Assembly: GCF_000154285.1 (NCBI RefSeq)
Contig: NZ_DS483463.1
Coordinates: 1-58,241 of the forward strand
Reading direction: 5' to 3'
From: Amedibacillus dolichus DSM 3991
GTDB lineage: Bacteria; Bacillota_I; Bacilli_A; Erysipelotrichales; Erysipelotrichaceae
DNA: 58,241 nucleotides
The notes beneath the pieces were generated by a model. That model made no database searches and had not been told where the DNA came from. It worked only from the letters and a program-made list of their open reading frames with translations. Below are positions 33,097 through 58,241 of the stretch, piece by piece; position 1 is the stretch's first letter, and each line of letters starts with the position of its first letter. The translations under genes and the position numbers were made by a program.

Positions 33097-33126
33097 TTAC
33101 TTATTTTTCAAGTTCTATGGTAAAAT
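33097..33126 (+). promoter_or_regulatory. Putative promoter of the riboswitch-permease operon
   Basis: TTACTT (33097-33102), 18-nt spacer, TAAAAT (33121-33126) with TG one base upstream. Confidence 0.5.
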
Positions 33127-33133
33127 AGTAACG

Positions 33134-33257
33134 TTTCGTATATTTCTGCTAGTATGGTGCAGATGTTTCTACCCCAAGCCAGACACTTTGGGACTACGAA
33201 TCAGTTTTTGTAATGAATGCTGATTCTCGTAAATCTGGTTGCGAGAATTTTTATTTT
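33134..33257 (+). promoter_or_regulatory. Purine (guanine-class) riboswitch with terminator platform
   Basis: The aptamer spans about 33134-33201. P1 pairs TTCGTA (33135-33140) with TACGAA (33195-33200); the conserved junction segments TATA, ATGG, GTTTCTACC and GACTACG are all present. The C in GACTACG at the ligand-pairing site indicates guanine/hypoxanthine rather than adenine. The platform contains GAATCAG/CTGATTC (antiterminator-like) that competes with the terminator ATTCTCG (33223-33229)/CGAGAAT (33242-33248) and a T-run to 33257. Bound purine should turn the operon off. Confidence 0.93.
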
Positions 33258-41875: not shown

Positions 41876-41993
41876 CATACGGATTGCTTCATAATAGTTT
41901 GTGAAGGTAGAAAAAAAGTATAATTACATTTATCTCTTTAGGGGATTGTGGTAAACTAAAGGAGTAAAATACATACATAAGGAGAGTTTGAAA

Positions 41994-43286
41994 ATGAAAC
42001 AGGATATGATTGTTATTTTAGACTTAGGAAGCAGTGAGAATACGACACTTGCCAGAGAAATTCGTGCTCTTGGTGTTTACAGTGAGATTCACCCGCATGA
42101 TATTACGAAGGAAGAATTAAATCAATTGCCAAATGTTAAGGGTGTAATTTTGAATGGTGGAGAGCATCGTCATGTTGATGGTAAGGATATTGATGTTTTG
42201 CCGGAAATTTATGAAGCTGGCTATCCTGTGATTGCGATTGATCATGCTTTGGCATGCTGCGAGGTAAAATTAAGTGCTTATCCAACAGAAGAACAGCTGA
42301 AGGATTTTGTGTTTGCTACTTGTAAGGCAGAAGCGAATTGGAATATGAAGAACTTTGTTGCGGATCAAGTGGAACGCATTCGTTCGCAGGTTGGTGATAA
42401 AAAAGTATTGTTGGCATTATCCGGTGGAGTGGATTCTTCTGTTGTTGCGGCAATGCTGATCAAGGCTATTGGTAAGCAATTGGTGTGTGTGCATGTAAAT
42501 CATGGCTTGATGCGTAAGGGCGAGTCTGAAAGTGTTGTGGAAGTATTTAAAAATCAAATGGACGCAAATCTTGTTTATGTTGATGCAAGTGAACGTTTTT
42601 TGAAAAAGCTTGAAAATGTTGACGATCCCGAAGCAAAGCGCAAGATTATCGGTGCTGAGTTTATTCGCGTTTTTGAGGAAGAGGCTCGTAAATTGGAAGG
42701 AATTGATTTCTTAGCACAAGGAACGATTTATCCGGATATTGTGGAGAGTGGGACAAAGACTGCGAAGGTAGTTAAATCACATCATAATGTGGGCGGTCTT
42801 CCTGAAGATTTGGAATTTGAATTGGTAGAGCCATTGTATTATCTGTTTAAAGATGAAGTACGTGCATGTGGTGTGGAGCTAGGTTTACCTCATGATATGG
42901 TATATCGTCAGCCATTCCCGGGACCGGGCTTAGGTGTTCGCTGTCTTGGAGCGATTACAAGGGAACGTTTGGAGGCAGTTCGTGAATCTGATGCGATTCT
43001 TCGTGAAGAATTTGCGAAGAGTGGTTTGGATCAAAAGGTTTGGCAGTATTTTACCATTGTTCCTGATTTTAAATCCGTTGGTGTGAAGAATAATGCTAGG
43101 TGCTTTGAGTATCCGGTGATTCTGCGTGCGGTGAATACGATTGATGCGATGACGGCTTCTATTGAACAGATTGATTGGGCAATCTTGGAGAAGATTACAG
43201 ATCGTATTTTGAAAGAGGTACCGAATGTAAATCGTGTGTGCTATGATTTGACACCGAAACCATGCGGAACGATTGAGTGGGAATAG
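41994..43286 (+). CDS. guaA: GMP synthase with a truncated, glutaminase-dead N-terminal domain
   Basis: A 430-residue GuaA, against about 510-525 for the usual enzyme that converts XMP to GMP. The C-terminal ATP-pyrophosphatase and dimerisation parts are intact: ALSGGVDSSVVAAML (about residue 142), AQGTIYPDIVESG, KSHHNVGGLP, RQPFPGPGLGVR, and the end TPKPCGTIEWE. The N-terminal GATase domain starts normally (VILDLGSSENTTLAREIRALGVYSEI, VKGVILNGG) but the nucleophile motif GVCYG reads AIDHA, and about 80 residues that hold the His and Glu of the triad are missing. It should use free ammonia, or ammonia from a separate glutaminase. The ATG at 41994 follows AAGGAGAG; the TTG at 41988 is less likely. 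Confidence 0.93.
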   Translation: MKQDMIVILDLGSSENTTLAREIRALGVYSEIHPHDITKEELNQLPNVKGVILNGGEHRHVDGKDIDVLPEIYEAGYPVIAIDHALACCEVKLSAYPTEEQLKDFVFATCKAEANWNMKNFVADQVERIRSQVGDKKVLLALSGGVDSSVVAAMLIKAIGKQLVCVHVNHGLMRKGESESVVEVFKNQMDANLVYVDASERFLKKLENVDDPEAKRKIIGAEFIRVFEEEARKLEGIDFLAQGTIYPDIVESGTKTAKVVKSHHNVGGLPEDLEFELVEPLYYLFKDEVRACGVELGLPHDMVYRQPFPGPGLGVRCLGAITRERLEAVRESDAILREEFAKSGLDQKVWQYFTIVPDFKSVGVKNNARCFEYPVILRAVNTIDAMTASIEQIDWAILEKITDRILKEVPNVNRVCYDLTPKPCGTIEWE

Positions 43287-43885: not shown

Positions 43886-45001
43886 CTATCTTGCCTGCTC
43901 AATTAAGAGTGGGGAAGTAGGTGGAGAATCGATTGCTTCTTGATCTTTAATCTGAATGATTTGATCAAGGTAATCTGCTAATTGATTTTGTTTATTAGGA
44001 TATAAATGCGAGTAAGTTTGAAGTGTTGTTTCAATCTTTTCGTGTCCTAATCTTTCTTGCACAAGATTTGGTTGCATACCTAATTCAATTAAATAACTGG
44101 CATGACTATGTCTTAAATCATGAACTCTGATATGTTTTACATTTGCTTTATCAGCATAATAATCAAGATCTCTTTTGAGTCTTTGTTTATTGGTCATGAA
44201 GACTTGTTCATTTTGATCGATGAAGTAAAACTTATCGATGTATTGTTTGATCATATCACTCAAGAATTTAGGCATAGTAACATGTCGTTTTGACTTTGGT
44301 GTTTTCGTATCGGTTACGATATATTGTCCATGCTCATATTGTGCTGATTTATTGACATCAATATATCGTTTGGCGAAATTTATATCTTTTAGTTGTAATG
44401 CAATGAGTTCGCCAACACGTAGTCCAGTATAGAATAAGACATTAAATTGGATGAAGCAGGATTCATCATCTACTACTTCGATAAATCGATCAAATTCTTC
44501 TTTTGTCCAAAAGTTGATGGCTTGTGGATTTTTTGTGCCAATCTTTTGTACTTTTCGTAAAGGGTTATTAGTTAATCCATAGAACTTTTCCGCATGGTTG
44601 AAGATGGCTCTTATTTGATTATAAATCGTTCTGACATAAGTAGGTGCTAATCCTAAACTTAAGATTTAGTTTTGCCATCGTATGATATCGGATACCAATA
44701 TTTTTGACATGATCTTATCGCCAAGTAAGGGCAAGATATATTTCTTACAAATAGCATCTTTTGTTTCTTTGGTATTATATCGAATGCGATGTTCTAAATC
44801 TTTGGAATAGATTTCATAAAATTGATTGATTGTCATATCAACATCATTTGTATGGTTAGCTAGAAAATCATTTTCCCAAGCTTTTGCTTCTTTCTTGGTC
44901 TTAAAACCACGCTTGGCTGTTCGTTTCTTTTCACCATAATAATCTTCATAGGTAAGGGTAACAATCCATGTACCTCGTTTTTCATCTTTATAAACCGACA
45001 T
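43886..45001 (-). pseudogene. int: Tyrosine integrase interrupted by one in-frame stop
   Basis: A phage/Tn916-type integrase of about 371 codons, in a single frame except for a TAA at 44668-44666 (after residue 111). The N-terminal part has the arm-type DNA-binding domain (TWIVTLTYEDYYGEKKRTAKRGFKTKKEAKAWENDFL) and the start of the core-binding domain. Reading on past the stop gives continuous integrase sequence (LAPTYVRTIYNQIRAIFNHA, FYTGLRVGELIAL with the first catalytic Arg, then HDLRHSHASYLIELG and LGHEKIETTLQTYSHL with the Tyr). The catalytic set is intact, so the damage is one base, probably recent, or a sequencing error. RBS GGAGG before the ATG at 45001. Confidence 0.88.
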
Positions 45002-45214: not shown

Positions 45215-45249
45215 AAGCACCAGCAAGAAAGAATCATTACTTGGTGCTT
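45215..45249 (-). terminator. Terminator at the end of the XRE repressor gene
   Basis: AAGCACCA (45242-45249, minus-strand sense) pairs with TGGTGCTT (45215-45222), followed on the minus strand by Ts (45210-45216). The stop codon lies in the loop. It would separate the repressor from xis-int. Confidence 0.7.
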
Positions 45250-45503
45250 AATTTACACTCTTTTACTAGTTCGCTGACAGAAATACCCAAAGCTCTTGCG
45301 ATTTTGCATAGAACATAAATGGTCATATTTCGTTTTCCAGTTTCCACATCAAACAAGTATTGAACATGTAGATCACATTGTCTTGCAAGTTCAGCTCTTG
45401 CCATATTCTTTTCGCTTCTTAATTTCGCAATGCGTATTCCTAAATCCTGTATTAGAGTCTTTTCTTCTTGGTCGAATACCATTTTATGCGATCTTGTCGT
45501 CAT
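45237..45503 (-). CDS. XRE-family element repressor
   Basis: An 88-residue Cro/CI-type regulator. The helix-turn-helix is at about 20-75: LGIRIAKLRSEKNMARAELARQCDLHVQYLFDVETGKRNMTIYVLCKIARALGISVSELV. It is probably the repressor that keeps the mobile element quiet, as with Orf9 of Tn916, although here it is encoded in the same direction as xis and int. The ATG at 45503 follows AAAGGTGATGACGAA; the longer frame to 45554 lacks an RBS. Confidence 0.85.
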   Translation of the reverse strand: MTTRSHKMVFDQEEKTLIQDLGIRIAKLRSEKNMARAELARQCDLHVQYLFDVETGKRNMTIYVLCKIARALGISVSELVKECKLSTK

Positions 45504-45554
45504 TTCGTCATCACCTTTCGTTACTATTGCCTTTGGCAATACAACATATACCAC

Positions 45555-46043
45555 AACACTTTGTATATATCTAGCGCAAAGAATTCAATAACTTACAAAG
45601 CAGGCAGAATCTATATAAACTCTGCCTGTTTAATCTGTTATCAAATCAAAATAATTGATTGCTTATCAATAATCGATATTTTTCGTGTCCCTCGATCTTG
45701 GGCATGACTAATCAATGATGGGTATCATTTCACTGGAATTACACCACTCCCGACCTAGGAGGCACTTTCGTGGAGTATCATTACTATAAGGTCATGGCGA
45801 AATAGATTACCAATCTATTTCATCGTCTTGTATGAATCGCTCGCTAATACTATTAGGTCTTGGCGTACAAACGAAAGTCGCTCTCTTATAACAGCTACGA
45901 ACTGTATGTAGTTAACCATGGCTATTCAAAATGTCAAAGAACCACACTCTTATTTCATTTGAAAGAAGAGAGGAGAGGGAGTAATGGGGAAATTCCCCCT
46001 CAAGTAGATAAGGAATTTCAAGACAAAGTGAGTACTTTTATTT
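45555..46043. other. Structured non-coding region inside the island
   Basis: No convincing gene in about 490 bp. It contains several strong inverted repeats: 45599-45608 with 45621-45630 (AGCAGGCAGA type), a perfect 10-bp arm hairpin GAAATAGATT-ACC-AATCTATTTC at 45799-45821, and GGGGA-AAT-TCCCC at 45986-45998. Frames on either strand are short or unlike proteins. It could carry a non-coding RNA, control region or transfer origin. Confidence 0.4.
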
Positions 46044-46466: not shown

Positions 46467-46541
46467 TTATACCTCCGTTTCTGCAATCAATTTCTTGATT
46501 CGAAACAGAGGCGGAGAGCGTGCATGAGGCTTTAGAAACAT
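46467..46541 (-). CDS. 24-residue leader peptide of the sigma-like gene
   Basis: A short frame that starts MFLKPHARSPPLFRIKK and ends AETEV. GGAGG lies 8 nt before its ATG (46541-46539), an excellent RBS, and its stop codon is 3 nt from the sigma-like gene start, so the two are likely coupled. The peptide is basic and contains a Pro-Pro pair. Its RBS forms one strand of the terminator-like stem at 46545-46552, so folding would block its translation. It is either a regulatory leader peptide or a small functional protein. Confidence 0.6.
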   Translation of the reverse strand: MFLKPHARSPPLFRIKKLIAETEV

Positions 46542-46543
46542 AA

Positions 46544-46626
46544 AAAAGCCCTCCTATCTTAGAAACGCGTGTTAAAAATATACGAGTGTATATGATAAGT
46601 TGGTTTCTACTATATTTGGGCTTTTG
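46544..46626 (-). ncRNA. Nested-hairpin leader RNA upstream of the sigma-like gene
   Basis: Three stems are nested: AAAAGCCC/GGGCTTTT (outer, 46545-46552 with 46618-46625), AGAAAC/GTTTCT (46561-46566 with 46603-46608) and ATATAC/GTATAT around GAGT (innermost, about 46579-46594). On the minus strand the outer 3' arm is GGGCTTTTTT, so it also looks like an intrinsic terminator, and it overlaps the GGAGG of the leader peptide. This fits a leader that controls both transcription and translation by attenuation. Confidence 0.55.
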
Positions 46627-46745
46627 ATACTGTTTATATTTGATACAAGTAGCGATTTGTTACTGAATTTTAAACTCCTTTCACACCTTAATTTTAACAC
46701 ATTAAAAAACTAGGAGTTTTTGATATCTAGTGACAAAATAGTCAT

Positions 46746-48599: not shown

Positions 48600-50954
48600 A
48601 TGATACTAACTAAAAAACAAATGACCGAAGAAGATGTTAAGCGATTGTATATTACCCCTGTTCTTGAATCAAAATGGGATAAGAACAAAATCACAATGGA
48701 GTATAGAATCACAGATGGTCGAATTAATTTAAAAGGAAATGTAGTACGGCGAATGTCTCCGAAGAAAGCAGATTATGTCTTGTGGTTAAATAAGGGGAAA
48801 CCGATTGCGATTGTAGAAGCAAAAGATAATAATCACAGTATTTCGTATGGTATGCAACAGGCGAAAGAATATGCAAAAATGATGGATGTTCCTTTTGCAT
48901 ATAGTTCAAATGGAGATGGGTTTCAAGAATATGATTTTTTGTCAAACGAAGAAAGAACAATTGCATTAAATGAATTTCCAACTTCCGAAGAATTGCTAAA
49001 GCGATATAAAAGTGAATTAAATAAAGGAGCAGGAATATCGCGTGATGAAGAAACGGTTTTAGAGCAACCTTTCTATTCGAGTCAAAAATCATTTGATCCA
49101 AGATATTATCAGAGAAATGCAATTAATAGGACTTTAGAAGCGATCGCAAAAGGACAAGATCGTGTTTTGCTAGTTATGGCGACTGGTACTGGTAAAACAT
49201 ATACAGCATTTCAAATTGTATATCGCTTATTAAAAAGTGGGTTAAAAAGAAAAATATTATATTTGGCGGATAGAAATATTCTTGTGGATCAATCAATTGA
49301 TCAAGATTTTTCGCCTTTGAAGAGAGTAATTCATAAAATTAATTTCAATGAAGATGATCCAAATACAATAACATCATATCAGGTATATTTTTCACTTTAT
49401 CAACAACTAGCAGGAAATAGTGATGATAGTGATGACGAAGAAGTTACATCTAAACTTGCCAAATTATTTAAGAAGGACTTTTTTGATTTAATCATTGTCG
49501 ATGAATGTCATAGAGGTTCAGCAAAAAAGGAAAGTAACTGGAGAAAAATTTTAGAATATTTTTCGTCTGCAGCTCAAATTGGTATGACTGCTACTCCAAA
49601 AGAAACAAAAGAGATTTCCAATATCGATTACTTTGGTGAGCCAGTGTATACTTATAGTCTAAAAGAAGGTATTGAAGATGGTTTCCTTGCTCCATTTAAA
49701 GTTATTAACATTATGACAGACATTGCTGAAGGATGGAGACCACTCGCAGGTCAAACTGATATTAATGGAAATATCATAGAGGATAGAATTTATACAAACA
49801 GTGACTTTGATTACAATATCGTCATTGAAGATCGCATCAATTCTGTAGCAAGAGAAATAACAAATTATTTGAAAAGTACTGATCGGATGCAAAAGACAAT
49901 TGTATTCTGTGCGAATGAAGCTCATGCAGAACGGATGAGGATTGCACTTCATAATTTAAATAAAGATATGAATCATGATGACTATGTTGTTAGAATAACT
50001 GGCAGTGATGAATATGGAAAAAGTAAATTGAAATATTTTATCTCAACATCTCAAGAGTATCCTGTAATTGCGACAACATCCAAGCTTTTATCAACAGGTG
50101 CAGACTGTAAGATGACAAAACTGATAGTTTTAGATCAAATGATAGGATCTATGACAGAGTTTAAACAGATCATTGGTCGTGGTACGAGAATTAGAGAAAA
50201 AGATGGTAAAACACATTTTGTAGTAATGGACTTTAGAAATGTGACTAGACTATTTAGCGATCCTGAATGGGATGGACCGATTGAAGTAAACGAAGGTTAT
50301 ACAAATGAAGAAAAACCTGGACGACCAATAAAAGAAGTTGATGGAGATAATCCTAATGGTAAAGGTGAAGATATTATAAAAACAAAACCATTTATAGATG
50401 CGAATGGTTGTAAAGTAGAAATTATAAATAAAAAAGTTTCGGTTTATGATGCTGAAGGCAAGTTATTAAGAGTAGAAAATATTATAGATTATACAAAGAC
50501 CAATATCAAAGGGGAATTTGCATCTTTAGACAATTTTATTAACACTTGGACTTGCAATAAGAAAAAAGAAGAAATATCTAATTTATTGTTACAGCAAGGC
50601 ATTGACTTAAATGCATTAAAAGAAGAAAAGAATATGTCAGATGTAGATGATTTTGATTTTATTTGTCATATTGCTTTTGATCAAAAACCATTAACTAGAA
50701 AAGAAAGGGCAAATAGTGTTGAAAAATCAGACTTCTTTGGTAAGTATAGCGGAGTAGCTCGTGAAGTATTAGAAATACTTTTAGAAACATATAAAAATGA
50801 AGGCATTTATGAAATTGAAACTACGGAAGTATTGAAATTAGAACCATTCAAAAAGTATGGTACACCTTCAAAAATTGCGAGTTATTTTGGTGGGAAAACT
50901 GGCTATATAAATGCAGTTCAAAGTTTACAAAATGTTATATATGGAGTGATTTAA
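48600..50954 (+). CDS. hsdR: Type I restriction enzyme endonuclease/translocase subunit HsdR
   Basis: A 784-residue motor and nuclease subunit. The N-terminal PD-(D/E)xK nuclease reads ADYVLWLNKGKPIAIVEAKDNN (about residues 58-80); the helicase domains carry Walker A VMATGTGKTYTAF (about 195), the DEAH-type box IIVDECHRGS, motif III IGMTATP, and motif VI FKQIIGRGTRIRE (about 525). The C-terminal part (about 650-780) should bind HsdM. The size fits the shorter EcoEI/EcoAI-like branch. The ATG at 48600 follows AGAGGTGAT; an in-frame GTG at 48591 lies within that RBS. One base separates it from hsdM. Confidence 0.95.
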   Translation: MILTKKQMTEEDVKRLYITPVLESKWDKNKITMEYRITDGRINLKGNVVRRMSPKKADYVLWLNKGKPIAIVEAKDNNHSISYGMQQAKEYAKMMDVPFAYSSNGDGFQEYDFLSNEERTIALNEFPTSEELLKRYKSELNKGAGISRDEETVLEQPFYSSQKSFDPRYYQRNAINRTLEAIAKGQDRVLLVMATGTGKTYTAFQIVYRLLKSGLKRKILYLADRNILVDQSIDQDFSPLKRVIHKINFNEDDPNTITSYQVYFSLYQQLAGNSDDSDDEEVTSKLAKLFKKDFFDLIIVDECHRGSAKKESNWRKILEYFSSAAQIGMTATPKETKEISNIDYFGEPVYTYSLKEGIEDGFLAPFKVINIMTDIAEGWRPLAGQTDINGNIIEDRIYTNSDFDYNIVIEDRINSVAREITNYLKSTDRMQKTIVFCANEAHAERMRIALHNLNKDMNHDDYVVRITGSDEYGKSKLKYFISTSQEYPVIATTSKLLSTGADCKMTKLIVLDQMIGSMTEFKQIIGRGTRIREKDGKTHFVVMDFRNVTRLFSDPEWDGPIEVNEGYTNEEKPGRPIKEVDGDNPNGKGEDIIKTKPFIDANGCKVEIINKKVSVYDAEGKLLRVENIIDYTKTNIKGEFASLDNFINTWTCNKKKEEISNLLLQQGIDLNALKEEKNMSDVDDFDFICHIAFDQKPLTRKERANSVEKSDFFGKYSGVAREVLEILLETYKNEGIYEIETTEVLKLEPFKKYGTPSKIASYFGGKTGYINAVQSLQNVIYGVI

Positions 50955-50955
50955 T

Positions 50956-52440
50956 ATGAGTAATTTATCAGGATTTGTAAAAAGTATCCGAGATATTATG
51001 CGTAACGATGCAGGTATCAACGGCGATGCTCAAAGAATTGAACAAATTGCATGGATGCTATTTTTAAAGGTATATGATGCAAAAGAACAAGACTGGGAAA
51101 TGGATGAAGATGATTACATTTCTATTATTCCTGATCAATTCAAGTGGTCTAATTGGGCACATGATGATGGTTCAGGTAAGGCGATTACTGGTGATGAATT
51201 ACTAGATTTCGTTAATATTGAATTGTTCCCTGCATTAAAGAATCTTGAGGTTAATAAAGAAACACCAATCAAAAAATCGATTGTTAAAACTACTTTTGAA
51301 GATGCAAATAACTATATGAAAGATGGTGTTTTGCTTCGTCAAGTTATTAATGTAATTGATAAGCTGGATTTAGGAGATTATGAAGAAAGCCATGCATTTG
51401 GAGAAATATATGAATCTATTCTGAAAGAACTTCAAAGTGCAGGTTCTTCAGGTGAGTTTTATACACCTAGAGCAGTTACCGATTTTATGGCTAAAATGAT
51501 TGAACCTAAAATAGGAGAAACCATGGCAGATTTCGCCTGCGGGACAGGGGGATTTTTGACTAGCTGGATTAAAGAGTTAGAGAATAAAATACAAACAAAT
51601 GAAGATAGAAGAAAATTCGATTCTTCAATTTATGGAATTGAAAAAAAGCAATTTCCTTATATGTTATGTATAACAAACATGCTTTTGCATGGTATTGATA
51701 TCCCAAGAATCGAGCATGATAATTCTTTATTATATGATGTTTTAGATTATACAGATGATGACAAATTTGATGTAATTTTAATGAATCCACCCTATGGAGG
51801 AAATGAAAAAAGTGATGTGAAGAATCACTTTCCATCGGATTTAGCTAGCAGTGAAACAGCTGACTTATTTATGTCTGTGATTATGTATCGGTTGAAAGAA
51901 AATGGTAGAGTAGCAGTTATTTTACCTGATGGTTTCTTGTTTGGAACTGATAATGCAAAAGTTTCGATTAAAAAGAAATTATTGAATGAATTTAATTTGC
52001 ATACAATCGTAAGAATGCCACATAGTGTATTTTCACCATATACTTCAATAACAACTAACATTTTATTCTTTGATAAGACAGGAAAAACGAAAGAGACATG
52101 GTTCTATCGTTTGGACATGCCAGAAGGATATAAGAATTTTTCTAAAACAAAACCAATGAAACTTGAACATTTTGATCCTGCGATTAAATGGTGGAATAAT
52201 CGAGAAGAAATTTCAATTGATGGTTTTGACAAAGCAAAAAAATACTCAAAAGCTGAACTAGAAGAGAAAAATTACAATTTAGATTTATGTGGTTATCCTC
52301 ATGAGGAAGAAGAAATATTACCTCCTAAAGATTTGATTAAAGAGTATCAAGAAAAGAGAAAAAGTTTAAACGCTGATATAGATAGAATTTTAGGACAAAT
52401 TTCTGAAATCCTTGGTTTTGATTTTGAGGAGGAAGAGTAA
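50956..52440 (+). CDS. hsdM: Type I restriction-modification DNA methyltransferase HsdM
   Basis: A 494-residue N6-adenine methyltransferase. The N-terminal domain opens with NLSGFVKSIRDIMRNDAGINGDAQRIEQIAWMLFLKVYDAKEQDWE; the SAM-binding motif I is MADFACGTGGFLTSW (about 195) with STGEF-like SSGEFYTPRAV just before; the catalytic motif IV is NPPYGG (about 278). The C-terminal helix runs EYQEKRKSLNADIDRILGQISEILGFDFEEEE. The stop shares its last base with the hsdS ATG. From 51131 to its end the gene is repeated in inverted orientation at 56932-58241. Confidence 0.95.
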   Translation: MSNLSGFVKSIRDIMRNDAGINGDAQRIEQIAWMLFLKVYDAKEQDWEMDEDDYISIIPDQFKWSNWAHDDGSGKAITGDELLDFVNIELFPALKNLEVNKETPIKKSIVKTTFEDANNYMKDGVLLRQVINVIDKLDLGDYEESHAFGEIYESILKELQSAGSSGEFYTPRAVTDFMAKMIEPKIGETMADFACGTGGFLTSWIKELENKIQTNEDRRKFDSSIYGIEKKQFPYMLCITNMLLHGIDIPRIEHDNSLLYDVLDYTDDDKFDVILMNPPYGGNEKSDVKNHFPSDLASSETADLFMSVIMYRLKENGRVAVILPDGFLFGTDNAKVSIKKKLLNEFNLHTIVRMPHSVFSPYTSITTNILFFDKTGKTKETWFYRLDMPEGYKNFSKTKPMKLEHFDPAIKWWNNREEISIDGFDKAKKYSKAELEEKNYNLDLCGYPHEEEEILPPKDLIKEYQEKRKSLNADIDRILGQISEILGFDFEEEE

Positions 52441-52724
52441 TGGAAGATAGAATGACAGCCCAACAATTGAAAAATTCAATTCTTCAAATGGCTGTTCAGG
52501 GAAAACTTGTACCTCAAGATTTAAATGATGAGCCAGCATCAGTTTTACTTAGAAGAATAAAAAAAGAAAAAGAAGAACTAATTAAGGAAGGGAAGATTAA
52601 AAAAAGTAAAACAGAATCTTTCATCTTTCGTGGTGCCGATAATCTTCATTATGAGCAGATAGGTAAAGAGGTACGATGTATTGAGGATGAATTGCCTTTT
52701 GAGATACCTGATAATTGGGAATGG
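51131..52724 (+). repeat. Large inverted repeat, left arm (hsdM plus hsdS 5' end)
   Basis: The 1,594-bp segment is repeated in reverse at 56648-58241 with position relation x + y = 109372. The protein translations are identical over the whole stretch; identity ends exactly where TRD1 begins. The left limit is set by the window end, so the repeat may be longer. Confidence 0.9.
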
Positions 52725-53993
52725 GTACACATTAATGATATTGCAGAATCTTATTTAGGAAAAACACTAAATAAAACAAAAGATATTGGTGAATCTGTTC
52801 CATACTTATGTAGTATTAATATCCAATCAGATTACATTGATATGAATACTATCAAGATTGCAAAATTTAATGAGGCAGAAAAACAAAAATATTTGCTTCA
52901 AGATGGAGATTTATTAATTTGTGAAGGTGGAGATGCAGGAAGGTCAGCAGTGTGGAACAAAAATAAAACAATGTATTATCAAAATGCGTTACATCGTGTT
53001 CGCTTTTATGAAAAACTTAATCCAGTTTTTTATCAAAGAGTTCTATCTTTTTATAAAGTCTCCAAAATATTGGATAATTATTTTAAAGGTGTAACTATTA
53101 AGCATTTTGTACAAAAATCATTATTTTCAATTTATTTTCCTCTACCCCCACTCCAAGAACAACATCGAATAGTTGCAAAACTTCAAGAATTAGAACCGTT
53201 GATTGAAAAATACAGAATTGCTGAAGAACAATTACATGAACTAAATTCAAATATCAAGGATCAATTAAAGAAATCGATTCTTCAATATGCAATCGAAGGT
53301 AAACTAGTACCTCAAGATCCAAATGATGAACCTGCATCTGTATTATTAGAGCGTATTCGAGAAGAAAAACAACAACTTATCAAAGAAGGTAAAATCAAAA
53401 AAGATAAGAATGAATCCATCATTTTTAGAAGGGATAATTCTTATTATGAAAAGATAAACGGAATTGAGTATTGTATAGACAATGAAATCCCGTTTGAGAT
53501 ACCAAATTCATGGCAATGGGCAAGACTTAACAATATTGGGAATTGGGGAGCAGGCGCTACTCCTAGCAAATCAAATAACGAGTATTATTCGAATGGTACA
53601 ATACCTTGGTTATTAACTGGAGATTTGAATGACGGATATATCACAAATATTCCAAATCATATAACAGAATTAGCTTTAGAAAAAACTTCTGTTAAACTTA
53701 ATCCATCTGGTTCTGTTTTAATTGCGATGTATGGAGCAACAATTGGAAAGTTAGGAATACTGACTTTTCCAGCAACTACAAATCAAGCATGTTGCGCATG
53801 CTTAGTATACAAACCATTCTATTCAAAATACTTATTTTTCTATTTACTAGCTAATAAAAGAAACTTTGTCAAAAAAGGTGAAGGAGGGGCTCAACCTAAT
53901 ATTTCAAAAGAAAAAATCATAAAAACACTTATAGCAGTTCCGCCTCTCAAAGAACAAATAAGAATAGTAAATTTGTTAGGAAAAGTTATTTAA
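52440..53993 (+). CDS. hsdS: Type I specificity subunit HsdS (expressed copy)
   Basis: A 517-residue specificity protein with the classic layout: a conserved start (MTAQQLKNSILQMAVQGKLV), TRD1 (about residues 96-235), a central conserved helix region (LPPLQEQHRIVAKLQELEPLIEKYRIAEEQLHELNSNIKDQLKKSILQYAIEGKLVPQDPN), and TRD2 (about 340-510) closing with VPPLKEQIRIVNL. Each TRD reads half of a split DNA target. Its 5' part (to 52724) and central part (53145-53449) are copied in the inverted hsdS at 55418-56932, while the TRDs differ. A TAA at 53991-53993 separates it from more in-frame TRD sequence. Confidence 0.94.
   Translation: MEDRMTAQQLKNSILQMAVQGKLVPQDLNDEPASVLLRRIKKEKEELIKEGKIKKSKTESFIFRGADNLHYEQIGKEVRCIEDELPFEIPDNWEWVHINDIAESYLGKTLNKTKDIGESVPYLCSINIQSDYIDMNTIKIAKFNEAEKQKYLLQDGDLLICEGGDAGRSAVWNKNKTMYYQNALHRVRFYEKLNPVFYQRVLSFYKVSKILDNYFKGVTIKHFVQKSLFSIYFPLPPLQEQHRIVAKLQELEPLIEKYRIAEEQLHELNSNIKDQLKKSILQYAIEGKLVPQDPNDEPASVLLERIREEKQQLIKEGKIKKDKNESIIFRRDNSYYEKINGIEYCIDNEIPFEIPNSWQWARLNNIGNWGAGATPSKSNNEYYSNGTIPWLLTGDLNDGYITNIPNHITELALEKTSVKLNPSGSVLIAMYGATIGKLGILTFPATTNQACCACLVYKPFYSKYLFFYLLANKRNFVKKGEGGAQPNISKEKIIKTLIAVPPLKEQIRIVNLLGKVI
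53145..53449 (+). repeat. Second inverted repeat, left arm (central hsdS region)
   Basis: A 305-bp segment that repeats in reverse at 55917-56221 (x + y = 109366). It spans the conserved region between TRD1 and TRD2, so recombination here swaps only the second TRD. Confidence 0.9.
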
Positions 53994-54563
53994 CATTATT
54001 CTTATTATGAGAAGTTTGCCGAATTTACAAATAAAATTGATGATCTTATACCATTTGAAATTCCAAATACTTGGGAATGGATTAGATTAGGTACTGTAGG
54101 TGAATCAAATATTGGTTTAACATATAAATCGTCAGATATAACTAATTCAAAAGGAATTTTAGTTTTAAGATCAGGAAATATTCAAAATGGAAAAATGTCA
54201 TATTGCGATAACTTATATGTTTCATGTGAAGTGCCACAAAAAGCAATGATATATAAAAATGATCTACTTATTTGTGCTAGAAACGGAAGTCGTTCTTTAG
54301 TTGGAAAGTGTGCGATTGTAGATATTGAAAAAGCATCATTTGGGGCTTTTATGACTAAATTTAGTAGTAAATTTAATCCTTATATAAAAATATTTTTAGA
54401 TTCACCTACTTTTAGAAATCAATTAGATAATGTCAAAACAGAAACAATAAATCAAATCACGCAAAAAAATCTACAAAATCAATTACTTCCTTTACCTCCT
54501 TTTGAAGAACAAATTAAAATTGTTAATACGATCAACAAAATATACTCCATTCTAGATTGTTAG
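53994..54563 (+). pseudogene. Silent third TRD2 cassette (partial hsdS)
   Basis: A 570-bp stretch continuing in the same frame as hsdS directly after its TAA. It starts YSYYEKFAEFTNKIDDLIPFEIPNTWEWIRLG, the usual entry into a TRD, and ends LPLPPFEEQIKIVNTINKIYSILDC, the usual HsdS C-terminal close. The 21 bases at 53998-54018 are repeated in reverse at 55909-55929 in the other hsdS, right at the border of the central repeat. It has no start of its own, so it looks like a spare TRD2 that could be brought into use by recombination. Confidence 0.85.
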
Positions 54564-54579
54564 AATGGAGTATTGTTTT
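54542..54579. terminator. Terminator between the silent TRD and the recombinase
   Basis: A perfect 13-bp stem, 54542-54554 with 54561-54573, loop GATTGT, with TTTTT at 54576-54580 on the plus strand; likely bidirectional for the converging genes. Confidence 0.8.
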
Positions 54580-55379
54580 TACCAATCAATTAAATTATCA
54601 ACAAGTTCTTGTTGTTCTGTGGAAGTTTTTCTTAAATATATTCTTGTGGTTTCTATACTTTCATGTCCCATTAAATCTGCTAAAAAAGCAATATCATTGC
54701 ACTTTGCTAAAAAATTTTTTGCAAATCTATGGCGGAACGAATGCGGATATACCACATTAGGATTAATATCATATTTCAAAGCAAATTTTTTTAATTGCCC
54801 CGAAATTCCTCTGGTAGTAATTCTGTTCCCATATTTGTTTAAGAATATAAATCCTGTTTCCTGATTCCTAGATTTTAACCAAATCAATGCCTCTTTCTTT
54901 AATTTAACAGGAATATATATTCGTCTTAATTTACCACCTTTTGAATAAATATCGATATAGCCTAATTGCACATGTTCTACTTTTATTTGAATCAATTCAC
55001 TCACTCGAGCGCCTGTAGCAGCTAGAAATCTAACTACCATATACCAATCCAAATCATCTTTTTTCAAACAATTCTTTAAATAGTTATAGTCTGCTTCGCT
55101 AATAACATTTTCAAGATAAGTTTTTTGTTGAATTTTGATAAATGGTAATTTCAAACTTCCTTTACTTAAAAATTCTAGGTAACAATTAATAGCTCTTAAA
55201 CGAAGATTCACTGTTTTAGGCTTATAGTTTTCTATTAACCAAGTTTTATACTGTTTTAAATTTTTTTTATTTATATCCTCATACTGTATAAAATACTGAT
55301 CAACAGCAAATACATACGAATCAATCGTATTTTTTGAAAAATTTGTTTTTTCTAAATATTCTTTAAATTGTTTACTCAT
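54579..55379 (-). CDS. Tyrosine recombinase of the hsdS locus (specificity shuffler)
   Basis: A 266-residue Xer-like tyrosine recombinase. The N-terminal SAM-like domain spans about 1-85 (FKEYLEKTNFSKNTIDSYVFAVDQYF), and the catalytic residues are visible: Arg in AATGARVSELIQI, Lys in YSKGGKLRRIYIP, His-x-x-Arg in YPHSFRHRFAKNF, His in LMGHESIETTRIYLRKTS with the Tyr. Enzymes of this type sit between opposed hsdS genes and invert them through the inverted repeats, as in several Firmicutes and streptococcal loci. GGAGGATTGTT precedes the ATG. It is placed between the silent TRD2 and the inverted hsdS. Confidence 0.9.
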   Translation of the reverse strand: MSKQFKEYLEKTNFSKNTIDSYVFAVDQYFIQYEDINKKNLKQYKTWLIENYKPKTVNLRLRAINCYLEFLSKGSLKLPFIKIQQKTYLENVISEADYNYLKNCLKKDDLDWYMVVRFLAATGARVSELIQIKVEHVQLGYIDIYSKGGKLRRIYIPVKLKKEALIWLKSRNQETGFIFLNKYGNRITTRGISGQLKKFALKYDINPNVVYPHSFRHRFAKNFLAKCNDIAFLADLMGHESIETTRIYLRKTSTEQQELVDNLIDW

Positions 55380-55417
55380 AACAATCCTCCTTCGGAAGAA
55401 AATTATAAGTACAAATA

Positions 55418-56932
55418 TTAAAGTAAGTGTGTTATGAGATTAATTTTTTCTAAAATTCGTTGTTGTTCGGTTATTGGTGGCAAAAAGATAAGCGTATTAT
55501 TAAATAGTTCTTTATCTAAATGAGGTATTGCAGCGCCTTTTTTGTTATGTTTGTATTTAATTCTGTTGCATTGAAATATGATGTCTACATATTTTTCGTT
55601 AACAAAATTAGAAGTTTGTAATATTTTAAAAGTGCTTCCCATATACCCTCGGTATTTTATTTTCATTACTTCTCCCGAATTTTCACCATCAACTAAAATA
55701 ACATTAGTGCCACGGGTCACTATCACTCCACTATCTTTTGTTTCTGCTTCCTTATTTCCACGTAAAACTTTTACTTCTAAATAAGGAAGTATCTCACCTT
55801 TTGATAAATTCCCGTTATTAAGCCAACAAAGATTCTTTTGTCTTGTTAAAATCCAATTAATTGGAACGCTACATTTTATTTCATCATCAATACAGAACTC
55901 TGTATTTCCAAACTTCTCATAATAAGAATTATCCCTTCTAAAAATGATGGATTCATTCTTATCTTTTTTGATTTTACCTTCTTTGATAAGTTGTTGTTTT
56001 TCTTCTCGAATACGCTCTAATAATACAGATGCAGGTTCATCATTTGGATCTTGAGGTACTAGTTTACCTTCGATTGCATATTGAAGAATCGATTTCTTTA
56101 ATTGATCCTTGATATTTGAATTTAGTTCATGTAATTGTTCTTCAGCAATTCTGTATTTTTCAATCAACGGTTCTAATTCTTGAAGTTTTGCAACTATTCG
56201 ATGTTGTTCTTGGAGTGGGGGAATAGGCAGTATCATTTTTGAGAGTGTTTGTCCATTACAGTTAGGTTGGGCAGTTGCAATTGTTCCTTTTTTTAGTTGA
56301 CTCCAGTATAAAGAAGTTTCCATAAAATACTTAAGATATTTGGGATTAATTTCGTTATAGTTATAAACAGTTCTAATTAGATATCCTGCAAATACAGAGT
56401 CCTCGTTGATATTTTCTACCAGAAACGACTTACCAACTGTACCTCCCGTTCGAGCAAACAATATATCAAAATTATGTAGTAAATAATCAGGTATTTCATT
56501 TTCTTTAATATTACAAAAAGGAACACTATCCCATAAAACTTGATTATCCTGTATATCCGTAATTCTAACCATTTTGATTACTCCTGTATCTTTTGCAGGT
56601 GCATTATATCCATATTGGATTTTATACGAAACTTCTCCCCACGACTTCCATTCCCAATTATCAGGTATCTCAAATGGCAATTCATCTTCAATACATCGTA
56701 CTTCTTTACCTATCTGCTCATAATGAAGATTATCGGCACCACGAAAGATGAAAGATTCTGTTTTACTTTTTTTAATCTTCCCTTCCTTAATTAGTTCTTC
56801 TTTTTCTTTTTTTATTCTTCTAAGTAAAACTGATGCTGGCTCATCATTTAAATCTTGAGGTACAAGTTTTCCCTGAACAGCCATTTGAAGAATTGAATTT
56901 TTCAATTGTTGGGCTGTCATTCTATCTTCCAT
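55418..56932 (-). CDS. hsdS: Type I specificity subunit HsdS (second, inverted copy)
   Basis: A 504-residue second HsdS on the minus strand. Its first 95 residues and the central conserved region equal those of the other hsdS, while TRD1 (SWGEVSYKIQYGYNAPAKDT onward) and TRD2 (from FGNTEFCIDDEIKCSVPINW) are different. It closes with FLPPITEQQRILEKINLITHLL. It has its own ATG overlapping an hsdM stop, so as drawn it could be expressed; in normal inverting loci the second copy is silent. Together with the first copy and the spare TRD2 it gives two TRD1 and three TRD2 choices. Confidence 0.92.
   Translation of the reverse strand: MEDRMTAQQLKNSILQMAVQGKLVPQDLNDEPASVLLRRIKKEKEELIKEGKIKKSKTESFIFRGADNLHYEQIGKEVRCIEDELPFEIPDNWEWKSWGEVSYKIQYGYNAPAKDTGVIKMVRITDIQDNQVLWDSVPFCNIKENEIPDYLLHNFDILFARTGGTVGKSFLVENINEDSVFAGYLIRTVYNYNEINPKYLKYFMETSLYWSQLKKGTIATAQPNCNGQTLSKMILPIPPLQEQHRIVAKLQELEPLIEKYRIAEEQLHELNSNIKDQLKKSILQYAIEGKLVPQDPNDEPASVLLERIREEKQQLIKEGKIKKDKNESIIFRRDNSYYEKFGNTEFCIDDEIKCSVPINWILTRQKNLCWLNNGNLSKGEILPYLEVKVLRGNKEAETKDSGVIVTRGTNVILVDGENSGEVMKIKYRGYMGSTFKILQTSNFVNEKYVDIIFQCNRIKYKHNKKGAAIPHLDKELFNNTLIFLPPITEQQRILEKINLITHLL
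55917..56221 (-). repeat. Second inverted repeat, right arm
   Basis: Reverse complement of 53145-53449 (305 bp). Adjacent to it, 21 bases at 55909-55929 also match 53998-54018 at the start of the spare TRD2. Confidence 0.9.
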
Positions 56933-58241
56933 TACTCTTCCTCCTCAAAATCAAAACCAAGGATTTCAGAAATTTGTCCTAAAATTCTATCTATATCAGC
57001 GTTTAAACTTTTTCTCTTTTCTTGATACTCTTTAATCAAATCTTTAGGAGGTAATATTTCTTCTTCCTCATGAGGATAACCACATAAATCTAAATTGTAA
57101 TTTTTCTCTTCTAGTTCAGCTTTTGAGTATTTTTTTGCTTTGTCAAAACCATCAATTGAAATTTCTTCTCGATTATTCCACCATTTAATCGCAGGATCAA
57201 AATGTTCAAGTTTCATTGGTTTTGTTTTAGAAAAATTCTTATATCCTTCTGGCATGTCCAAACGATAGAACCATGTCTCTTTCGTTTTTCCTGTCTTATC
57301 AAAGAATAAAATGTTAGTTGTTATTGAAGTATATGGTGAAAATACACTATGTGGCATTCTTACGATTGTATGCAAATTAAATTCATTCAATAATTTCTTT
57401 TTAATCGAAACTTTTGCATTATCAGTTCCAAACAAGAAACCATCAGGTAAAATAACTGCTACTCTACCATTTTCTTTCAACCGATACATAATCACAGACA
57501 TAAATAAGTCAGCTGTTTCACTGCTAGCTAAATCCGATGGAAAGTGATTCTTCACATCACTTTTTTCATTTCCTCCATAGGGTGGATTCATTAAAATTAC
57601 ATCAAATTTGTCATCATCTGTATAATCTAAAACATCATATAATAAAGAATTATCATGCTCGATTCTTGGGATATCAATACCATGCAAAAGCATGTTTGTT
57701 ATACATAACATATAAGGAAATTGCTTTTTTTCAATTCCATAAATTGAAGAATCGAATTTTCTTCTATCTTCATTTGTTTGTATTTTATTCTCTAACTCTT
57801 TAATCCAGCTAGTCAAAAATCCCCCTGTCCCGCAGGCGAAATCTGCCATGGTTTCTCCTATTTTAGGTTCAATCATTTTAGCCATAAAATCGGTAACTGC
57901 TCTAGGTGTATAAAACTCACCTGAAGAACCTGCACTTTGAAGTTCTTTCAGAATAGATTCATATATTTCTCCAAATGCATGGCTTTCTTCATAATCTCCT
58001 AAATCCAGCTTATCAATTACATTAATAACTTGACGAAGCAAAACACCATCTTTCATATAGTTATTTGCATCTTCAAAAGTAGTTTTAACAATCGATTTTT
58101 TGATTGGTGTTTCTTTATTAACCTCAAGATTCTTTAATGCAGGGAACAATTCAATATTAACGAAATCTAGTAATTCATCACCAGTAATCGCCTTACCTGA
58201 ACCATCATCATGTGCCCAATTAGACCACTTGAATTGATCAG
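56648..58241 (-). repeat. Large inverted repeat, right arm (runs off window)
   Basis: Reverse complement of 51131-52724 (1,594 bp). It reaches the very last base of the window, still inside hsdM. Confidence 0.9.
56932..58241 (-). CDS. hsdM: HsdM, second inverted copy, cut by the window edge
   Basis: The minus-strand frame from the window end to 56932 translates to the same HsdM sequence as the plus-strand gene, covering its last 435 or so residues, including motif I (FACGTGGF) and NPPYGG. The true start would lie about 175 bp beyond the window; the TTG-initiated MFPALKN is only an internal codon. The copy is identical to the other over all visible bases as far as I can read. It may be a genuine duplicate or an assembly product of hsdS inversion. 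Confidence 0.7.
   Translation of the reverse strand, partial: DQFKWSNWAHDDGSGKAITGDELLDFVNIELFPALKNLEVNKETPIKKSIVKTTFEDANNYMKDGVLLRQVINVIDKLDLGDYEESHAFGEIYESILKELQSAGSSGEFYTPRAVTDFMAKMIEPKIGETMADFACGTGGFLTSWIKELENKIQTNEDRRKFDSSIYGIEKKQFPYMLCITNMLLHGIDIPRIEHDNSLLYDVLDYTDDDKFDVILMNPPYGGNEKSDVKNHFPSDLASSETADLFMSVIMYRLKENGRVAVILPDGFLFGTDNAKVSIKKKLLNEFNLHTIVRMPHSVFSPYTSITTNILFFDKTGKTKETWFYRLDMPEGYKNFSKTKPMKLEHFDPAIKWWNNREEISIDGFDKAKKYSKAELEEKNYNLDLCGYPHEEEEILPPKDLIKEYQEKRKSLNADIDRILGQISEILGFDFEEEE

Follow-up and report, generated by a model that had tools for sequence, protein, structure and literature searches.

A putative RAPP-like arrest motif in the leader of a sigma-like regulator gene in an Amedibacillus dolichus mobile element

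The stretch of DNA analysed here (the window) comprises 58,241 nt of Amedibacillus dolichus DSM 3991 (GCF_000154285.1, contig NZ_DS483463.1, positions 1 to 58,241). On its minus strand, a structured leader RNA precedes the gene of a sigma-70 region-4-like regulator (the sigma gene), which belongs to a mobile element. The sequence of this leader, its conservation at homologous loci and folding models lead us to propose that it is probably a translational attenuator built on an arrest peptide of the RAPP type, which would switch on the regulator of the mobile element. A first-pass annotation made from the sequence alone had described a layered leader controlling the sigma-like gene, and this description is supported; the two features central to our proposal, a second hairpin (46511-46472) and the RSPP codons at its 5' arm, were absent from it.

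Homologues of the sigma gene were gathered by protein or profile search, blind to the leader, from relatives, the family and order of the host genome, plasmids, phages and one scan of species genomes. Once duplicates had been dropped, 39 distinct upstream regions were left (loci carry L numbers, which are labels of this analysis; L008 is the window copy). The motif R-[S/G/A/D]-P-P, searched for within 110 nt of the sigma start, is found in frame 48-68 nt before it in 33 of the 39 regions, as RSPP (23), RGPP (5), RAPP (4) or RDPP (1), where dinucleotide shuffles give an expectation of 0.11 motif-bearing regions. None of 88 other genes of the same loci that are preceded by a Shine-Dalgarno (SD) sequence carries R[SGAD]PP. 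When Pro-Pro pairs near the sigma genes are counted in any sense frame, whether or not an Arg is present, R[SGAD] comes before 33 of the 35. The six motif-free regions are three truncated or rearranged copies (L026, L033 and L047), a Tn916-type gene (L072) and two loci with another leader peptide (L025 and L079).

The conserved residues are written with a wide choice of codons. Five of the six Arg codons are in use (AGG, AGA, CGT, CGG and CGC), as are all six Ser codons from both the TCN and AGY families, and the six-member clade of the window gene (support 99/97) alone contains five Arg codons, with Ser or Ala at position 2. The window peptide reads MFLKPHA-RSPP-LFRIKKLIAETEV, with RSPP at residues 8-11. 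Flanking residues vary among the leaders, position +1 being F, L, C, S, I, D, G, A or V, and the hairpin sequence CTGTTTC that follows Pro-Pro is read in three different frames (CCT CTG TTT in the window, CCT GTT TCA in L045 and CCC TGT TTC in L039). The position of the leader stop codon ranges from -41 to +60 relative to the sigma start. The rest of the peptide and the spacing between stop and start are therefore unconserved, while four codons are conserved; to judge from this pattern, the R[SGAD]PP motif is under selection at the peptide level. The 24-codon frame of the window does end 3 nt before the sigma ATG (46463), as the first-pass annotation had it, but the translational coupling it read into this spacing is not borne out by the relatives, and of the 24-residue peptide these keep only R-[S/A/G/D]-P-P.

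Part of the leader frame, CCUCUGUUUC, pairs with GAAACGGAGG, which holds the sigma-gene SD, and the RSPP codons (46520-46509) sit at the 5' arm of the resulting hairpin. In a seven-sequence alignment of window-type leaders, 87.5% of the cells of this SD-masking hairpin are paired and eight pairs have changed on both sides; its covariation score of 0.352 compares with 0.178 for shuffles (0 of 500 as high) and with a maximum of 0.197 when slid. Covariation and codon conservation, whose joint absence from related leaders would by the first-pass annotation's own account have told against it, are thus both present, the latter limited to four codons. Masking of the ribosome-binding site, which that annotation had also proposed, holds for the sigma-gene SD, but it is brought about by this covarying hairpin, of which the annotation made no mention.

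In folding models, the median probability that the sigma-gene SD is unpaired is 0.02 in free RNA, 0.00 when a ribosome sits on a start codon that lies four codons ahead of the Arg and 0.65 when one is stalled at RxPP. The corresponding values for the window leader (L008) are 0.00, 0.00 and, with the ribosome stalled at RSPP, 0.81. When the position of the ribosome is scanned along the leader, the sigma-gene SD stays closed at positions as far as five codons short of the first Pro; it is open over a stretch that runs from about three codons ahead of this Pro to six codons past it. The pairing partner of the SD in most families is the Pro-Pro codons, so that the same bases would serve as anti-SD and as arrest codons. 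In L041, L024 and L037, the anti-SD is found entirely or for the most part downstream of Pro-Pro, and the CCACC of the RAPP forms in the window clade is a poor partner for GGAGG; the presence of Pro-Pro is thus not explained by pairing alone.

Upstream of the leader frame lies the terminator-like hairpin with nested stems that the first-pass annotation had described; it is present where that annotation placed it, on the minus strand, and holds the GGAGG of the 24-codon frame. Its outer stem is formed by AAAAGCCC (46625-46618) and GGGCUUUU (46551-46544), with two more stems nested inside, giving three stacked stems (46625-46544) that end in GGGCUUUUUU, and a U run (U6, 46547-46542) comes directly after it. 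The 180-nt leader has a minimum free energy of -45.5 kcal/mol (z -5.06, with 0 of 200 shuffles as good) and the upstream hairpin alone one of -22.3 (z -5.56). Equivalent hairpins (z -2.8 to -7.1) stand before the leader start in L039, L044, L045, L027 and L040; the leader SD is within or directly after the 3' arm in each, and a U run is next in four of the five (all but L040). Since the hairpin recurs in five relatives with unrelated arm sequences, attenuation of transcription, as claimed by the first-pass annotation, or masking of the leader SD is plausible. A stable hairpin followed immediately by a U run is the form of an intrinsic terminator, and termination here is a prediction; a scan with a consensus terminator tool did not list the hairpin, because its loop exceeds the size allowed by that tool. 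A search by eye for an antiterminator or a second upstream peptide that might act on the hairpin found none. The possible extended -10 element of the leader promoter, TGTTAAAAT, is weak, as the same 9-mer occurs four times on the minus strand and no clear -35 element accompanies it. The coordinates of these features and of the neighbouring genes are collected in Table 1.

Table 1. Features of the leader, the sigma gene and the adjoining part of the element (window coordinates)
Feature	Position	Strand	Basis or remark
Possible extended -10 promoter element of leader RNA	46691..46699	-	Read directly; weak
Terminator-like hairpin, nested stems and U run; leader SD in 3' arm	46542..46625	-	Folding, z -5.56
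Leader-frame SD, GGAGG, in 3' side of hairpin	46550..46554	-	Sequence; 8 nt before ATG 46541
Leader frame, 24 codons, MFLKPHARSPPLFRIKKLIAETEV	46467..46541	-	Sequence; only RSPP part conserved in relatives
RSPP codons CGC TCT CCG CCT, RAPP-like arrest motif	46509..46520	-	Predicted stall with first Pro in P site, second Pro in A site
SD-masking hairpin; 5' arm 46511-46502 inside leader frame, 3' arm 46481-46472	46472..46511	-	Folding and covariation
Sigma-gene SD, GGAGG	46472..46476	-	Folding; paired in free RNA
Sigma-70 region-4-like regulator, 139 aa	46044..46463	-	Pfam Sigma70_r4 E 2e-06; TIGR02937 E 7.2e-11
XRE-type repressor-like gene downstream of sigma gene	45237..45554	-	HTH_3 E 1.7e-10; same position in L088, L094, L095, L096
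N-terminal fragment of tyrosine integrase of the element, broken	44666..45001	-	Arm-DNA-bind_4 and Phage_int_SAM_3
C-terminal fragment of same integrase	43886..44275	-	Phage_integrase E 1.6e-15; adjoins guaA (41988-43286)

The closest parallel is with the RAPP-like arrest peptides (ApdA, ApdP, ApcA and the RQH family, with RAGP in SecM). The likeness consists of Arg-small-Pro-Pro with an invariant Arg and permissive A, G, S or D, in an upstream open reading frame (uORF) just before the regulated gene, with the stall site placed so as to open a hairpin that hides an SD (in the window, in silico). Mutagenesis of ApdA and ApdP found the Arg to be irreplaceable, Gly at position 2 to work as well as Ala or better, and Ser, Asp or Pro there to be partly active; when a RAPP-type peptide stalls, the P site holds the third codon and the A site the fourth (PMC12992588). 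In bacterial proteomes, RSPP and RDPP rank among the tetrapeptides most strongly avoided (PMC12992588). A genetic selection has yielded RxPP stalling sequences, and a minimal RxPP was reported to suffice (PMC10951233). Because the residues found here coincide with the permissive set, a match to the published arrest peptides can be inferred from sequence. The known peptides differ in being larger proteins with signal or membrane segments that precede sec/yidC or other host genes, whereas the leaders described here have about 8-25 residues, belong to mobile elements of Bacillota and carry mostly RSPP. In the RAPP family the motif sits close to the C-terminal end of small secreted or membrane proteins; the window peptide has 24 residues and neither a signal nor a membrane segment.

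In the resting state of the proposed mechanism, the sigma-gene SD would be hidden and little sigma protein made. A ribosome translating the leader would slow or stall once Arg-Ser-Pro occupies the P site and the next Pro the A site. The 5' arm of the SD-masking hairpin would be kept unpaired by the footprint of this ribosome, leaving the SD exposed to a second ribosome that would then make the regulator. The upstream hairpin with the leader SD may set a low level of leader RNA synthesis, of leader initiation or of both. The regulator would probably act on the recombination module just downstream (the XRE-type gene and integrase). Candidate modulators of the stall include a ribosome-targeting drug, the supply of elongation factors and general translation stress. 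With Ser at position 2, the stall is predicted to be weak and tunable and not a hard arrest.

Several observations weigh against this proposal. Of the natural RAPP-like sequences assayed in E. coli and B. subtilis, the majority failed to stall unless they had a suitable N-terminal context (PMC10987492), and here the residues before RxPP are very few (seven in the window and usually four elsewhere); moreover, RSPP is only partly permissive for arrest in the known peptides (PMC12992588). A convincing canonical start codon is missing from about a dozen leaders; in L012, L024, L028, L041, L042 and L064, for instance, none with a good SD is visible. In others the expected start is ACG (L014, L022, L043, L048 and L054), ATT (L039 and L044) or ATC (L040); such codons other than ATG, GTG or TTG, with an SD at the right distance, suggest weak or unusual initiation of the leader. 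The 33 motif cases are not independent, since many are related, and the sigma homologues L025 and L079 have a different leader peptide. In the largest group, constraint on the RNA alone could keep RSPP, because AGAAGTCCTCC and the leader SD region are reverse complements of each other and so form a terminator-like palindrome. The RNA modelling itself, with the ribosome represented as a blocked footprint, is crude.

That palindrome also speaks for purely RNA-based control, by a transcription attenuator and an SD hairpin, with RSPP a mere side effect of the anti-SD CCUCC and the palindrome; the Pro codons CCN do supply the anti-SD. We consider this improbable, as the motif persists in the three loci whose anti-SD lies elsewhere (L041, L024 and L037) and as CCACC in the RAPP forms, Arg codon use is fully synonymous, and RxPP is missing from the leaders of Tn916-type orf7 genes, which do contain an anti-SD-like stretch. 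Somewhat less improbable, though still unlikely, is plain translational coupling without arrest, in which passing ribosomes open the SD-masking hairpin and RxPP is incidental or causes a slight slowing. Because the modelled SD is open from about three codons before the first Pro to six after it, transit alone could expose it, the arrest being predicted; this leaves unexplained both the presence of Arg in all 33 motif leaders, with five different codons, together with the restriction of position 2 to S, G, A and D, and the wandering of the leader stop. That the frame and the fold arose by chance in a decayed element, and have no function, is barely credible: the integrase of the element is broken, but the fold z of -5.06, the covariation and the motif in 33 of 39 regions contradict it.

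The alternative with the strongest claim, while still unlikely, is that arrest depends on a drug or cofactor, as in erm leaders: RSPP alone would cause no stall, and a ribosome-targeting antibiotic would stall the ribosome at a short nascent chain, inducing the element. Genes of the tet(O) type, tet(40) or mef(A) lie close by in related elements, and the leader peptides are very short, as in the macrolide-inducible erm leaders (PMC5118997). Against this, the conserved residues fit an intrinsic arrest of the RAPP type and several related elements are without a recognised resistance gene near the leader. To our knowledge, no drug-specific arrest motif matches these residues. The likelihoods that we attach to drug-dependent arrest and to the attenuator proposed above are not exclusive, since the two differ only in what triggers the stall.

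Among other systems, the erm-type attenuators share with the window a short leader in which a stalled ribosome opens a hairpin over the SD of the next gene, the hairpin overlapping the stall site (PMC5118997). They differ in that the gene downstream in the window is Sigma70_r4-like and does not encode an rRNA methyltransferase, and in that the motif is RxPP. The tet(M) leader of Tn916 combines a terminator-like hairpin with a short frame in a mobile element, and the window leader resembles it in this respect. The first-pass annotation had drawn the same comparison, for which we found no match: identity with the tet(M) leader was rejected, as the window leader has no Rfam match and no similar DNA in plasmids and its downstream gene is sigma-like, and the control point in the window is instead an SD-masking hairpin with an arrest motif. 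In Tn916 itself, orf7 is likewise a sigma-like gene placed before excision and integration genes, with an anti-SD-like stretch upstream (L071), but it belongs to another sigma subfamily, and its membership in the class was rejected because RxPP is lacking in all seven loci examined (L071-L076 and L078). The arrest leader is therefore not general to such sigma genes.

RAPP-like arrest peptides have so far been described as long secretion monitors that precede host genes, and RGPP and RAPP uORFs were stated to be absent from many Gram-positive groups, including Bacillota (PMC12992588). The leaders described here are Bacillota frames too short for normal annotation and would thus be missed by proteome surveys. 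We suggest tentatively, and with less assurance than for the attenuator itself, that they represent a widespread and previously undescribed class of very short RAPP-like leaders through which Bacillota elements read the state of the ribosome and time a sigma-like activator. In such a class, the leader would often start just four residues ahead of the Arg of R[S/G/A/D]PP, in part of the cases on a non-AUG codon, the same bases would provide the Pro-Pro codons and the anti-SD, and the signal might be antibiotic exposure or a shortage of translation factors. If so, mobile elements of gut Bacillota, some of them with resistance genes, would time a regulator that precedes a recombinase by RxPP stalling, which would tie element activation to the state of translation in a concrete and testable way, with a compact design in which arrest codons double as anti-SD. 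A literature search limited to open-licence papers gave no prior description of RSPP leaders or of arrest peptides in integrative elements.

DNA-level searches were largely negative. An Rfam search of the window gave no match at the leader, a search of plasmid DNA with the leader as query found no similar DNA, and a family-wide DNA search returned nothing beyond short chance matches to SD-like stretches. Viral contigs held no relatives of the window-type, L015-type or A2 leaders; with the L012 type as query they yielded 11 loci, nearly all identical. A motif-first scan of viral contigs with CRSPP DNA gave seven matches, three of them leaders of sigma genes and four in other DNA.

The window sigma gene falls in a supported clade (99/97) with five genes from elements of Erysipelotrichaceae. 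In the intact relatives (L088 and L094-L096), the sigma gene is followed by approximately 0.5 kb without genes, an XRE gene and a 373-residue tyrosine integrase, with guaA or a chaperonin operon just past the integrase in some. The window has the same order, with the integrase fragments beside guaA; as the integrase is broken, the element has decayed, its leader and sigma gene being intact. In L019, L080, L081, L092 and L093, serine-recombinase-like proteins are encoded 0.9-1.3 kb downstream of the sigma gene. The stretch of about 490 nt between the sigma and XRE genes of the window (45555-46043) is gene-free, like the gap of similar size and place in the intact relatives, and is a candidate for an origin of transfer, integrase arm sites or an antitermination element.

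Other sigma-like genes also have short leaders. The same genome (G000) contains a second sigma gene with an RSPP leader (G000:C6:7444-7845; L012, L085), approximately 2.6 kb past the start of a tet(O)-like ribosome-protection gene; its upstream region has identical copies in plasmids and other genomes. At L064/L098 (G174), a tandem pair of sigma-like genes has an RxPP leader on each gene (CRSPPS-stop and LSRAPPS). A second conserved leader peptide, M-(K/R)-(R)-R-W-x-x-Y-I-A-(R/K)-Y-P-stop, precedes other sigma-like genes at L025 (G153:C2), L079 (MT838666.1) and L114 (IMG/VR 3300029825_000697). An arm able to pair with the SD is present there too, and the Pro-stop end recalls, by analogy, TnaC; none of 295 genomes of the phylum contained the exact pattern.

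Elsewhere in the window, the single Rfam match is a purine riboswitch aptamer on the plus strand (33116-33216, E 2.6e-08). A type I restriction locus (R, M and S genes) occurs twice, in inverted orientation, around a tyrosine recombinase gene (54579-55379) within 48951-58241 and the contig up to 60196 (L102). The two copies are 97-99.8% identical in aligned pieces and are accompanied by extra fragments of specificity genes, and the duplicated locus is probably an invertible, phase-variable system.
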